Origin: an uncultured Brachyspira sp.
Lineage (GTDB): Bacteria > Spirochaetota > Brachyspiria > Brachyspirales > Brachyspiraceae
Length of the DNA stretch: 64,000 nt
Direction: 5' to 3'
Assembly: GCF_944393015.1 (NCBI RefSeq)
Contig: NZ_CALXYQ010000003.1
Coordinates: 1-64,000, forward strand
The translations under genes were made by a program, and so were the position numbers. Below are positions 16,711 through 61,859 of this stretch, piece by piece (the first letter of the stretch is position 1; each line of letters opens with the position of its first letter). The notes under the pieces were generated by a model that ran no database searches, was not told the origin of the DNA, and saw only the letters and a program-made list of their open reading frames with translations.

Positions 16711-16801
16711 TTGTGTCGATTTTTATTGTGAAAGAAGATTGTAAAACTCGTACCGCTTTCCATAGTCTTAGAAAATTCGTTAAAATTAAAATTTTCAGTA
16801 T

Positions 16802-16988
16802 ATACCTAAACAATTATATTCTGTCAGAAATAATTTTTTTAAATTTTAAATATATACATGGCTTTGCCCGCCGCTCTGCATGCTTACGCAGCCCACTTCT
16901 TTTGCGACTGAAGGAAGTATCTTTAGGTAGGCATGCGGCTGGAAAAAGAACAAGAATAAAATAGACAAACTTAAAAAATTTTAGTATA
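16802..16988. repeat. Dispersed inverted-end element, copy A
   Basis: Begins TATACCTAAACAATTATATT and ends AAAAAATTTTAGTATA; 187 bp. The ends are imperfect inverted repeats of each other (TATAC...GTC and GAC...GTATA). The interior carries the GC-richer string GGCTTTGCCCGCCGCTCTGC. Bases 16775-16806 also resemble an element end, so part of another copy may abut it. Confidence 0.7.
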
Positions 16989-16992
16989 TTTA

Positions 16993-17020
16993 TTGACTAT
17001 TATGATTTTTTGATTATATT
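16993..17020 (+). promoter_or_regulatory. Promoter of the Rrf2 gene, giving an almost leaderless mRNA
   Basis: TTGACT (16993-16998), 16-bp spacer, TATATT (17015-17020). Start would fall at 17026-17028, two to four bases before the ATG at 17030. No Shine-Dalgarno is present. Confidence 0.5.
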
Positions 17021-17470: not shown

Positions 17471-17479
17471 TTTTTAATA

Positions 17480-17805
17480 TATACCTAAACAACTATATTT
17501 TGTCAAAAATTATTTTATTATTTTTATTATTTGTGGGGACTAGCCCCACCGCTCTGCGTACTTCGTAACACCCCCCTGTTCTTTTGTTGGCACAGGCGAA
17601 GCCCGCCTGCGGCGAGAACCAAAAAGCCTGCATTTATTGTCTAAATTTAGGTTATGTCATATATTTAATAAGTATATATTTAATATGAAGTTATAGTAAT
17701 TGCGTTTTTTGCAACTTTGGCGAAGCCCGCAGAGCGTGTGCAGCAAAAAAGTTGATAATTCTATATAAAGTGTATCAGTTAACAAACTTAAAAATTTTCA
17801 GTATA
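17480..17805. repeat. Dispersed inverted-end element, copy B
   Basis: Begins TATACCTAAACAACTATATT and ends AAAAATTTTCAGTATA; 326 bp. The interior has TGGGGACTAGCCCCA, a GTTCTTTTG...GAACC arm pair, and a long hairpin ending AAAAAAGTTG. It separates the Rrf2 and Crp/Fnr genes; no gene is seen in it. Confidence 0.8.
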
Positions 17806-21541: not shown

Positions 21542-21589
21542 TTATTAATAGTAAATATATTTTAAATCCAAGCCTTTATGTTTTTTATT

Positions 21590-21891
21590 TATACCTAAAC
21601 AACTATATTTTGTCAAAATAAATTTATATTTTTGTTTTTATATCTGGGGCTTTGCCCCATACCCCAGTTCTTTTATTGGTATAAAAGAACCAAAAAAACT
21701 GCATTTTTAGTCTAAATTTAGGTTATACCATACATTTAATACATATATTTTTAATATAAAGTTCTAACAATTGCGTTTTCGCAAAGCGTATCCGAGCTTG
21801 TCGAGGATATAGCTACTTTTTTGTGCGGCAAAAAAGTTGATAATAATTATATAATGTGTAGTACTCGGCAAAATGAAATCATTTCAGTATA
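21590..21891. repeat. Dispersed inverted-end element, copy C
   Basis: Begins TATACCTAAACAACTATATT and ends ATTTCAGTATA; 302 bp. The interior has GGGGCTTTGCCCC, the hairpin pair GTTCTTTTATTGG/TAAAAGAACC, and ACTTTTTTGTGCGGCAAAAA. No gene is visible in 21542-22212; besides this element and the next repeat the rest is AT-rich DNA. Confidence 0.8.
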
Positions 21892-35000: not shown

Positions 35001-35057
35001 TTTTTTATTTGTTATGATTATAAAATAATAATTAAGAAGTAAAAAAATATAATTATA

Positions 35058-35408
35058 TATACCTAAACAACTATATTTTGTCAAAAATAATTTTTTTAAA
35101 TTTTAAATATATGCAGGGCTTTGCCCTTACGAAGTACATAGCGTGCAACACCCCACTTCTTTTGCCGACGCTCTGCGTGCCGTAGGCAAGGCACCTACTT
35201 GGTGGTAACCCAAAGGAAGCTATATCCTCAACAGGCTCGGATACGCTTCGCGAAAGACTGCATTTTTAGGGTATATCCTATATTTAATAGGAATGTTTTT
35301 GATATAAAGTTCTAGCAGTTGCGTTTTTTGCAACTTTTTTGTGCGGCAAAAAAGTTGATAATTCTATATAAAGTGCATCGATTGACAAACTTAAAAATTT
35401 TCAGTATA
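35058..35408. repeat. Dispersed inverted-end element, copy D
   Basis: Begins TATACCTAAACAACTATATT and ends AAAAATTTTCAGTATA; 351 bp, the longest copy. The interior includes GGGCTTTGCCC, CGAAGTACATAGCGTGC-like GC-richer strings, and the perfect hairpin CAACTTTTTT/AAAAAAGTTG. No gene is supported in 35001-35584. Confidence 0.8.
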
Positions 35409-35459
35409 CACAGAAATTAAAAATTCCTGCCCTAGTTTTTATTAGCATTATTATCTTTT

Positions 35460-57514: not shown

Positions 57515-57742
57515 TTCAGTGTTAATGCTTACGATGAAAATGTTATTTATTAGAAAATTATTTTATAATAAATCTATTGTCTAAACAAAATTTAATAAAT
57601 TCATGCATATTTGAAATATTTTTTACTTTTAATAGTTTTCAGTAAATTATGATAATATAAAAAATAACAAATTAATTACTCTTTACAATAACAAGTTTTA
57701 TATTATAATTGATTCATTATTTTGATTAATGGGAGTTTTATA

Positions 57743-59272
57743 ATGATTAAAAGAGCATTAATATCTGTATTCTATAAAGACGGAATATTAGACTTTGCCA
57801 GGTTTTTAACTTCAAAGAATGTGGAAATAGTTTCTACAGGCGGAACTTACAAATATTTGAAAGAAAATAATATACCTGTGATAGAGGTTGCTGAAGTTAC
57901 AGGAGCTAAAGAAATGCTTGACGGAAGAGTAAAAACTTTAGATCCAAAAATACACGGAGCAATTCTAGCTATAAGAGATAATCCTACTCATATGGAAACT
58001 ATTAAAGAGAGAGGAATAACTCCTATAGATATGGTGATAGTGAATCTTTATCCTTTTTTTGAAAAAGTACAAGACGATAATTTGAAATTTGAAGAGAAGA
58101 TAGAGTTTATTGATATAGGCGGTCCTACTATGCTTCGTTCTGCTGCTAAATCTTTTAAAGATGTTGTTGTTATAAGCGATGTTAAAGATTATGATTTAGT
58201 AAAAAACGAAATGGAAAAAGGCGAAGTTAGTTTTGAAACAAAAAAATATTTAGCTTCTAAAGTATTTAATTTAACTTCTGCTTATGATGCTGCGGTTTCA
58301 GAGTTTATGTTTAATTCATTAGAAAGTAAGGAAGGCAAAAAACTTAATTATTTGAATATGTCTTATGCATTACAGGAAGAATTAAGATACGGAGAGAATC
58401 CTCATCAGGGAGCAAGTTACTATATATCAACTATAGATAAAGGTTCTATGAAAGGTTTTGAACAGTTAAACGGAAAAGAACTTTCATTTAATAATATCAG
58501 AGATATGGATATAGCTTTAAAAATAGTGTTAGAGTTTGATGAGTCTAAAAAAGAATATGCTTGTTCTGCTATAAAACATTCTACTCCTTGCGGTGCTGCT
58601 TTGGGTTCTAATGTATTAGAGGCTTATAATAGAACTTATGAATGCGATCCTACTTCTATATTCGGAGGAATAGTGGCTTTCAATAGTACAGTAGATGAAG
58701 CAACTGCAAAAGAACTTATAAAAATATTCTTGGAAATTGTTATTGCTAAAGACTTTACTCCTGAAGCTTTGGAAGTATTAAAAAGCAAAAAGAATTTAAG
58801 AGTTATAAAATACAAAACTAATACTAATGATAAAATCAATCTTGTTAAAGTTGACGGCGGATTACTTGTACAAGATGAAGATAATACTTTAATAGAAGAT
58901 TATAAAGTTGTAACAGAGAAAAAACCTACTGAAGAAGAAATGAAGAATTTAATATTCGGAATGAAGGTTGTAAAATATGCTAAATCAAATGCTATAGTAG
59001 TAATAAAAGACTTTATGGCTAAAGGTATAGGAAGCGGACAAACTAACAGAATATGGGCTTGCGAAGATGCTTTAGAGAGAGCAGGCGATGGGGTAGTTAT
59101 GGCATCAGATGCTTTCTTCCCATTCAGAGATGTAGTGGACGCCTGTGCTAAATACAATATTAAAGCTATAATTCAGCCCGGCGGATCTATGAGAGATCAG
59201 GAATCAATAGATGCTTGTAATGAACATGGAATTGCTATGATATTTACTGGAATAAGACATTTTAAACATTAA
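57743..59272 (+). CDS. purH: Bifunctional AICAR formyltransferase/IMP cyclohydrolase
   Basis: A 509-residue enzyme from the ATG at 57743 with GGGAG upstream. The IMP cyclohydrolase part begins [20 protein letters not shown] and has STGGTYKYL and [18 protein letters not shown]; the transformylase part has [41 protein letters not shown] and [13 protein letters not shown]. It catalyses the last two steps of IMP synthesis. Single gene closed by a strong terminator. Confidence 0.95.
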
Positions 59273-59298: not shown

Positions 59299-59335
59299 AA
59301 AGTGAAGTTAATTTTTTATTAGCTTCACTTTTTTA
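59299..59335 (+). terminator. Terminator after purH
   Basis: 14-bp stem with one G-U pair (AAAGTGAAGTTAAT/ATTAGCTTCACTTT), five-base T loop, T tail. Confidence 0.88.
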
Positions 59336-59338
59336 GTA

Positions 59339-59585
59339 TATACCTAAACAACTATATTTTGTCAATTTTGAGTTATTTACGAATGTAATTTTTATTTATT
59401 AATAGCATAAAATATTATTAAGTTTTCTTTAAAATATAAGATAAAAACTACATTTTGACTAAAAATGCAGTCTTTTTGGTTCTTTTGGTCACAAAAAGAA
59501 CTGGGGGGGGGGGGGGGGGCTAGTCCCCACAAATAACCTAAAGTTAAAATTGTATTTTTTGACAAACTCTAAAATTTTTAGTATA
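59339..59585. repeat. Dispersed inverted-end element, copy F (interior inverted)
   Basis: Begins TATACCTAAACAACTATATT and ends AAAATTTTTAGTATA; 247 bp. The interior (AATGCAG...GGTTCTTTTGGTC...AAGAACTGGGG...GGGGCTAGTCCCC) is in the opposite orientation to copies B and C relative to the ends. It contains the 17-G run. Confidence 0.75.
59503..59519 (+). repeat. Homopolymer run of 17 G
   Basis: Seventeen consecutive G lie 87 bases before the ATG of the DUF285 repeat gene, inside element F. Such tracts change length by slippage and can alter expression of the gene downstream. Confidence 0.9.
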
Positions 59586-59606
59586 TAATATTTTTAAGGA
59601 TTTACT

Positions 59607-61859
59607 ATGCATAAAAAGTTCAAACCAAATAATACAAAAGAATTAAAATTATTAGTTGATGATGAAAGCATTGATTTGAATGATATTGATACAAGCCTTA
59701 TCACTAATATGACAGATTTATTTAAATGTTCTCATAGAAAAAATTATGATGGTATTGAAAATTGGGATACTTCAAATGTAGAAAATATGCATGGTTTATT
59801 TTCATTTAATGCTTATTTTAATAATGATATAAGTAAATGGAATGTTTCAAAAGTTAAGATTATGTCAGAGATGTTTCATTTTGCTTTATGTTTTAATAAG
59901 CCTTTGAATGATTGGAATGTATCTAATGTTGAAAGTATGAATATGATGTTTCAGTCGGCCAAAGAATTTAATCAAAGTTTGGACAAATGGAACGTTTCTA
60001 AAGTAAAAAATATGAGAGGAATGTTTGCCGATGCATTGAAATTTGATGGTGATATTAATAATTGGAATGTAAGCTATGTAGAAGCAATGGATAATATGTT
60101 TAATGGGGCATTGGAATTTAATAAGCCTTTAAATAAATGGAATGTTTCTAAAGTAGAGAGTATGAATAAAATGTTTGCAAATACTAATAAATTTGATCAG
60201 GATTTAGATTCTTGGGATATTAAAAATCTTTATTCAATGACTTCTATGTTTGAAAATTCATTTATGTGTAAGAATGATAAAATTTCATTGAAATTTAAAA
60301 TTTACTCATACTGTTTAGAAAATAATAATGAAGATGATTTATCAGATCTTTTAAAAAATAATGATATTAAACAAATATATTATAGTATTAATACAAGCAA
60401 CAATAAAAAAATAATGCTTTTTCGTAAAAAGTTAGAAAATGATTATTATAATGAATTAAAAGAAACTTCTAATGATTTTAAAACTATAGAAGAAGCAGAA
60501 AATTATATAGAAAATAATTATAGTAAAAAAGATGAAAAGAAAGTTAAGTTTATAGATGATTTAAATATCGAAGAAGTATTAACTAAAGATAAAACAAAAA
60601 CAGTTAATATCAAAGTTATAAAATATATATACTTATCTTATTTGGCATTAAAGAGAGATGTTTTTAAAATAGTATTAATAGATAATATTATAAATTTATT
60701 TGATATGGAATCTTTTATAAAAGCTTTAAAACAAATATATATATCTTCAAAAAAAGAAACTTCAGCTATAATTTATGGAATATATGGAGGAGATGAAGCA
60801 GTAAAGGAAATATATGAAGAAGAAAAATATTCTAAACTTTTACTTATAATATTATCATTTCATAAAGAAAGTGATTATGCTATGAATCTATTATGCAATG
60901 TATTTAGATATAATGAAAGAGATGATATACAGAAAATGGCAGATGATATATTGCATGAAGCTGCTTTAATGAGAAATTTGACTGAAGATGAGATAGTATT
61001 TAAACTTATACCCAATTTCGGATTTGATAAAAACAGTGATAAAATTATAGAAGATAATAAATATAAATTAATTATTAATAATAATGAGGCAGAGCTTTTT
61101 GATATAGAAAAAAATAAAATATTAAAATCATATCCAAAAAATATGTCATCTGATTTGAAAGAAAAAATTAAATATCTTAAAAAAGAAATTTCATTTACTA
61201 TAAAAAATCAGAATTTTAATTTAATCAAACTTTTAATGAGCGGTAAAAAATATAATTACAGATTTTTTAAAGAAATTTTTATTGATAATGTTTTAATGAA
61301 TAAATTTGCTATTAACTTAATTTGGAATATGCATATTGAAAATAAAGTTTATACTTTCAGATATTCTGGATACGGAAGCTATAGCAATGAAAATGATGAA
61401 AGTATTATTATTGATGAAAACAGTTATATAAGTTTGGCAAGCCCTTTTGAAATGGAAAAAGAAACTATATCAAAATGGAAAGATCAGCTCAATGATTATG
61501 ATTTGTATCAGCCAATAATGCAGTTTAGCACCATTAATATAGATGATTTAAATGAAACTCTTAATAAATTAAAAGTGATAGAAACAAATTACGGACTTTT
61601 AAAAAGATTCGTTCATAAATATGAAATGAAAACTCATTTTCTTAATACCAATACAATTAATAAATATTCTTTTTATAATTCTATGAGTAAAGAGTATTTT
61701 TGTATTGATACTAATATATCATATTATGCTTTAAGTGATGATAAAGTTATTATTAAACCTTATTTTACTGCATATAATAATTCAGAAGTTAGTGAAAGAT
61801 TTATTTATACTTGGCTTATATTTTTTATATGGGAATTAAATTTACATGACATATTTTAA
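59607..61859 (+). CDS. BspA/DUF285 repeat protein with DUF4132-like C-terminus
   Basis: A 750-residue protein. Residues about 28-225 are seven copies of the roughly 25-residue DUF285 repeat (for example DISKWNVSKVKIMSEMF, PLNDWNVSNVESMNMMF). There is no signal peptide. Residues 230-600 are helical and charged. Near the end, LASPFEMEKETISKWKDQL followed by DLYQPIMQF resembles DUF4132. DUF285 repeats are found in surface proteins of several host-associated bacteria, but the lack of an export signal suggests an intracellular protein. Expression may vary through the upstream G tract. Confidence 0.7.
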   Translation: MHKKFKPNNTKELKLLVDDESIDLNDIDTSLITNMTDLFKCSHRKNYDGIENWDTSNVENMHGLFSFNAYFNNDISKWNVSKVKIMSEMFHFALCFNKPLNDWNVSNVESMNMMFQSAKEFNQSLDKWNVSKVKNMRGMFADALKFDGDINNWNVSYVEAMDNMFNGALEFNKPLNKWNVSKVESMNKMFANTNKFDQDLDSWDIKNLYSMTSMFENSFMCKNDKISLKFKIYSYCLENNNEDDLSDLLKNNDIKQIYYSINTSNNKKIMLFRKKLENDYYNELKETSNDFKTIEEAENYIENNYSKKDEKKVKFIDDLNIEEVLTKDKTKTVNIKVIKYIYLSYLALKRDVFKIVLIDNIINLFDMESFIKALKQIYISSKKETSAIIYGIYGGDEAVKEIYEEEKYSKLLLIILSFHKESDYAMNLLCNVFRYNERDDIQKMADDILHEAALMRNLTEDEIVFKLIPNFGFDKNSDKIIEDNKYKLIINNNEAELFDIEKNKILKSYPKNMSSDLKEKIKYLKKEISFTIKNQNFNLIKLLMSGKKYNYRFFKEIFIDNVLMNKFAINLIWNMHIENKVYTFRYSGYGSYSNENDESIIIDENSYISLASPFEMEKETISKWKDQLNDYDLYQPIMQFSTINIDDLNETLNKLKVIETNYGLLKRFVHKYEMKTHFLNTNTINKYSFYNSMSKEYFCIDTNISYYALSDDKVIIKPYFTAYNNSEVSERFIYTWLIFFIWELNLHDIF

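Follow-up and report, generated by a model that had tools for sequence, protein, structure and literature searches.

A G17 tract upstream of a Brachyspira DUF285/DUF4132 gene lies in an IS630-type MITE copy that probably brought the gene a promoter

The Correia elements (CREE/nemis) of Neisseria are short, TIR-bounded, non-autonomous repeats that number more than 100 per genome, and their sigma70-like promoters can drive neighbouring genes (PMC10969869). The Brachyspira MITE described here is likewise short, TIR-bounded and non-autonomous, with more than 100 TIR matches and a sigma70-like promoter sequence. In contrast to Correia elements, which favour gene starts, the Brachyspira copies avoid them, likely descend from an IS630-type parent and have a promoter activity that is predicted. 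With other IS630-family (Tc1/mariner-like) MITEs the element has in common TIRs that occur in a DDE_3 element, TA-rich insertion sites and an interior unrelated to the parent, but the transposase copies found are all decayed, and a G-rich arm and two hairpins with covariation are present in the core.

A further point of comparison is provided by the homopolymer contingency loci, of the nadA promoter type as well as the coding poly-G type. As meningococcal nadA shows, an upstream tract can in principle act at a distance via a regulator (PMC2791445). The G17 tract in Brachyspira, too, is long and simple and lies near a gene start; unlike those loci, it is most likely incidental to a mobile repeat, as the decayed hairpin arm of one IS630-type MITE copy, and neither the predicted promoter core nor the predicted mRNA includes it. 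The suspected switch is replaced by a concrete history, in which a TATA site received a MITE and the DUF285/DUF4132 gene probably gained a new promoter from it, and the MITE family with its probable promoter donation is a more useful finding than the tract.

The tract and its neighbourhood

In the window, meaning the whole 64,000-nucleotide stretch of DNA that was analysed, purH (57740-59272, plus strand), encoding the AICARFT/IMPCHase bifunctional enzyme, is followed on the same strand by an intact gene for a protein of 750 aa (59607-61859). The original prediction placed this protein with DUF285/DUF4132, and profile matches to DUF285 (PF03382, 3.6e-63) and DUF4132 (PF13569, 8.6e-19) confirmed the assignment. 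An inverted repeat with a T run at 59301-59334 (plus strand), 3' of purH and upstream of the MITE, forms a terminator-like hairpin, and its B. innocens ortholog scored as terminator-like. The sequence AAGGA at 59596-59600 (plus strand), 6 nt 5' of the ATG, is a putative ribosome-binding site. The G17 homopolymer itself occupies 59503-59519 (plus strand), where other MITE copies have the GGGGGTGTGGGGG 5' hairpin arm, and its end is 87 bases from the ATG at 59607; the tract upstream of the DUF285 gene is real, and both its position and this distance were correctly predicted.

The closest DUF285 orthologues are those of an uncultured Brachyspira MAG (92%), B. innocens (82%) and B. alvinipulli (71%, pseudogene-like). 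Paralogues with DUF285, or DUF285 and DUF4132, form a large family in the host genome, with 52 DUF285 domain matches among those listed. They are sometimes found in tandem (e.g., C71:4704-10090, C7:9591-11732 and C15:29698-31914), and some relatives have broken copies.

With a G+C content of 26.4%, the window has no other run of at least seven G or C, and an independent-base estimate gives about 1e-10 G17 or C17 runs per 64 kb. The tract is therefore non-random, as had been argued, but the argument from chance is weaker than it appears because the tract arose from a repeat arm that was already G-rich (GGGGGTGTGGGGG elsewhere). It serves as a warning that in AT-rich genomes a long homopolymer may stem from repeat decay. 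Among the matches listed for the 3.44-Mb host genome, there are two further runs of at least nine G, an intragenic G9 and a G11 that follows a lipobox-like LSAC on the small contig C110 (3.2 kb). The composition of C110 (48% GC), foreign to a genome of 26% GC, suggests contamination.

An IS630-type MITE family across Brachyspira

The tract lies within a 251-bp TIR-bounded copy of the element (59337-59587, plus strand), recognized by its TIR pair, its dispersed copies and its absence from the orthologous site in B. innocens. The left TIR, of type A (TTGACAAAATATAGTTGTTTAGGTATATA on the minus strand, 59337-59365, which reads TATATACCTAAACAACTATATTTTGTCAA on the plus strand), is promoter-like and points outward, away from the DUF285 gene, and the right TIR, of type B (TTGACAAACTCTAAAATTTTTAGTATATA, 59559-59587, plus strand), also points outward and faces the gene. 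The element is a MITE in that it is short, non-coding and TIR-bounded, with many dispersed copies and an unoccupied orthologous site. As it ends in TATATA and its targets are TATA-rich, a target-site duplication is inseparable from the element end.

When the 121-bp core around the tract was compared with the host genome by BLAST, 40 strong matches were among those listed, spread over many contigs, and full-element matches were found in 25 of the 26 Brachyspira genomes. In the host genome, the type A TIR (29 bp) is matched 158 times with at most three mismatches, and a reversed-pattern control gave no match. Other TIR pairs mostly enclose 244-336 bp and a few 600-834 bp, and some stand head-to-tail with one TATATA in common. 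The window holds further copies of the family at 16799-17000, 17478-17803, 21588-21760 and 35056-35411; those at 17478 and 35056 have additional palindromic sequence, richer in GC, in their cores. No known RNA family matched the element at E <= 1, and searches of plasmids and phages gave no match. The family is found across Brachyspira and is without a description in the literature found, with coverage of the Brachyspira papers on repeats, phase variation and DUF285 being partial.

The DDE_3 domain (PF13358) was found once in the genus, in genome G016, within a decayed IS630-type element of 1060 bp (C8:1637821-1638880) whose two ends carry TIRs of different types, one B and one A, an asymmetric pairing that the window MITE shares. 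Its C-terminal fragment carries the DDE_3 match (9.4e-8), and its N-terminal fragment has weak matches, below the cut-offs, to helix-turn-helix families. A second transposase N-terminal fragment adjoins a type B TIR in genome G023. Since its TIRs are those of a DDE_3-encoding element, the window element was classed as an IS630-type MITE, and on this sequence evidence the decayed G016 element is the likely parent of the family, although what parent and MITE have in common is limited to the ends, around 31-38 bp. No intact transposase was present in the host genome among the matches listed for PF13358 or for the N-terminal fragment as query. With the TIRs and a likely parent in hand, dozens of unannotated elements per genome can now be annotated.

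In a hand count of the listed core copies in the host genome, 12 have convergent genes as neighbours and 14 have tandem ones, with no copy flanked by a divergent pair, which indicates that copies are tolerated mainly at the 3' ends of genes. The position of the window copy, directly 5' of a start codon, is therefore unusual. A general role of the MITE as a mobile promoter was considered and, with these same counts, is not favoured. A TIR was found within 1.5 kb of 5 of 17 DUF285 loci where about 2.1 would be expected, using 100 of the 158 TIR sites, so that an enrichment of the MITE beside DUF285 genes is suggestive at most.

Two hairpins and the origin of the G run

An alignment of the core from 37 copies revealed two hairpins, with 96.5% of the cells paired. 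Changes on both sides of a pair were found in 25 cells as against 7.6 in shuffles, a count that overstates the independent events as changes are co-inherited among related copies, and the signal collapses when the partners are slid by 1-3 columns. In the window copy, hairpin 1 (GGTTCTTTT / AAAAGAACT) occupies 59478-59502 on the plus strand, immediately before the tract. The remnant of hairpin 2 follows at 59513-59531 (plus strand); its 3' arm, CCCCACA, is intact (59525-59531) and its 5' arm is eroded to poly-G. In other copies that 5' arm is GGGGGTGTGGGGG, of which TGTGGGG pairs with CCCCACA, and the usual segment in most copies is GGGGGTGTGGGGGCTAGTCCCCAC.

Of 47 extracted cores, only that of the window has an unbroken run of at least nine G. 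The nearest copy in the host genome reads GGGGGTGGTGGGGG, and its relatives with matching flanks in genomes G023 and G024 read GGGGGTGTGGGGG. As the sister copies are without a long G run, the tract is, by comparison of their sequences, a local and recent expansion; small length changes are seen elsewhere in the family too. The comparison shows that the T's of the hairpin arm were lost in the window copy and that the run grew to 17 G's. Slippage at the tract, as originally proposed, is plausible, and the tract length probably drifts in this way with little effect on the gene. An unusual RNA fold of the tract region was tried as a candidate and rejected, as the folding energy is unremarkable (z = -1.0). 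Another G11 run, in a similar element context, is present in genome G011.

The length of 17 is that given by a draft assembly of 111 contigs, and such long homopolymers are often misread. The true tract could accordingly be shorter or interrupted, as it is in the other copies, the closest of which read GGGGGTGTGGGGG or GGGGGTGGTGGGGG, with poly-G errors having produced the G17. Against this stands the position of the tract, which is well placed within the assembly, inside a contig of 155 kb, and runs directly into the expected CTAGTCCCCAC, and a few-contig Brachyspira assembly, G001, also has a G17 run elsewhere; an artefact of this kind is considered improbable. The run in G001 (C1:1234868-1234884) is located in a non-coding-looking stretch, its flanks are unlike those of the window tract and that genome has few MITE matches.

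A predicted promoter between the tract and the gene

The corresponding locus of B. innocens (G008) has a purH-DUF285 gap of 93 bp without the MITE, in which the terminator-like hairpin is followed by TTATTAATATAGTG, the ribosome-binding site and the ATG. The host gap is 334 bp long, and nearly all of the extra length is the MITE. A sister genome, G015, has a gap of 678 bp that contains two MITE copies oriented opposite to that of the window, and one of their TIRs ends precisely where the window TIR does, before ATATTTTAAGGATTTACTATG. Oppositely oriented copies at the same spot mean that the site was hit or rearranged at least twice. Most other Brachyspira genomes have different genes downstream of purH. 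The original prediction had called for homologous loci to be inspected for tracts of other lengths; at the orthologous site in relatives, there is no tract.

A simple sigma70 scoring scan put the best plus-strand site at the junction of the MITE and its flank (59559-59589, plus strand), with a score of 10.6 that is reached by 1% of random 271-bp pieces of the window. The predicted promoter consists of TTGACA (59559-59564) with either TATATA (59582-59587), at a 17-bp spacer and non-consensus at position 6, or TATAAT (59584-59589), at a long 19-bp spacer, and it was not among the sites reported by a rule-based scan whose spacing limits were stricter. In G015 the identical junction site is also the best, from differently oriented copies, and in the MITE-free gap of B. 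innocens the best score is 4.1, with TATAGT kept at the matching position. Taken together, the sequences indicate that the MITE probably gave the DUF285/DUF4132 gene a promoter. The IS630-type MITE came to lie between the purH terminator and the gene through insertion at a TATA site, which would have been that of an existing -10; the TATA(AT) near the gene start would have been kept and the terminal TTGACA of the MITE, now upstream of it, would supply a consensus -35, the two forming a hybrid promoter. Its transcript would start at around 59596, some 77 bp downstream of the tract.

The tract stops 39 bp short of the predicted -35, at about -93 to -77 relative to the putative start, and would thus be outside the promoter core and untranscribed. 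It had been proposed that changes in tract length could alter promoter spacing or mRNA structure, and this is unsupported, with the best predicted promoter lying between tract and gene; tract length should, from that position, alter neither the -35/-10 spacing nor the main mRNA. A homopolymer phase-variation locus would have its tract in the promoter spacer, the leader or the coding sequence of the switched gene, and the G17 tract, judged by the predicted promoter, is in none of these. The explanation that is favoured, and considered quite probable, is that G17 is a copy-specific expansion in an IS630-type MITE that entered a TATA site, and that the gene is little affected by the length of the run.

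A phase-variation switch would work differently, in that slippage of the G's would shift a regulator site, located upstream, with respect to the promoter and so raise or lower expression of the DUF285/DUF4132 gene. Hypermutability is to be expected of a pure G17, its distance of about -93 to -77 is like that of upstream-acting tracts such as the NadR-dependent tract of nadA (PMC2791445), and coding G11-G14 tracts that resemble contingency loci are present in several Brachyspira genomes. However, the tract is private to the window copy, and neither the other copies nor the locus in other genomes have it; it lies outside the promoter core and the predicted mRNA, there is no known regulator or operator at the tract, and most MITE copies are at the 3' ends of genes. 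Switching would need a regulator that binds upstream or read-through transcription across the element, which is possible and not supported, and such a switch is regarded as unlikely. It is less likely again, and very doubtful, that the MITE brings in a promoter and, once its own hairpin arm has decayed, a hypermutable G tract ahead of this promoter, so that insertion furnishes a DUF285 repeat protein with a ready-made contingency locus.

Transcription from further upstream, by read-through from purH or from a start in the MITE before the tract, would produce a long 5' leader in which the G tract, together with the C-rich arm, governs how the mRNA is translated or how stable it is. The G4Hunter score of 2.68 for G17 compared with 1.24 for the usual arm (a possible G-quadruplex) and the conservation of hairpin 1 are in keeping with such a leader. 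It has to contend with the terminator-like hairpin after purH, with the scores of plus-strand promoter candidates within the element upstream of the tract, which are at most 5.9 as against 10.6 at the junction, and with the folding energy noted above, and there is little likelihood that it applies.

Apart from the MITE, runs of 11-14 G are found inside reading frames at G004 C1:1606076, G019 C2:146750, G021 C220:1332, G005 C1:358854, G001 C1:1369592 and G003 C808:5854, and have the look of genuine coding contingency loci. In the G001 and G021 cases the G tract is where the frame breaks, and in other cases the frame is intact. By eye, some of the frames resemble methyltransferases or radical-SAM-like proteins.
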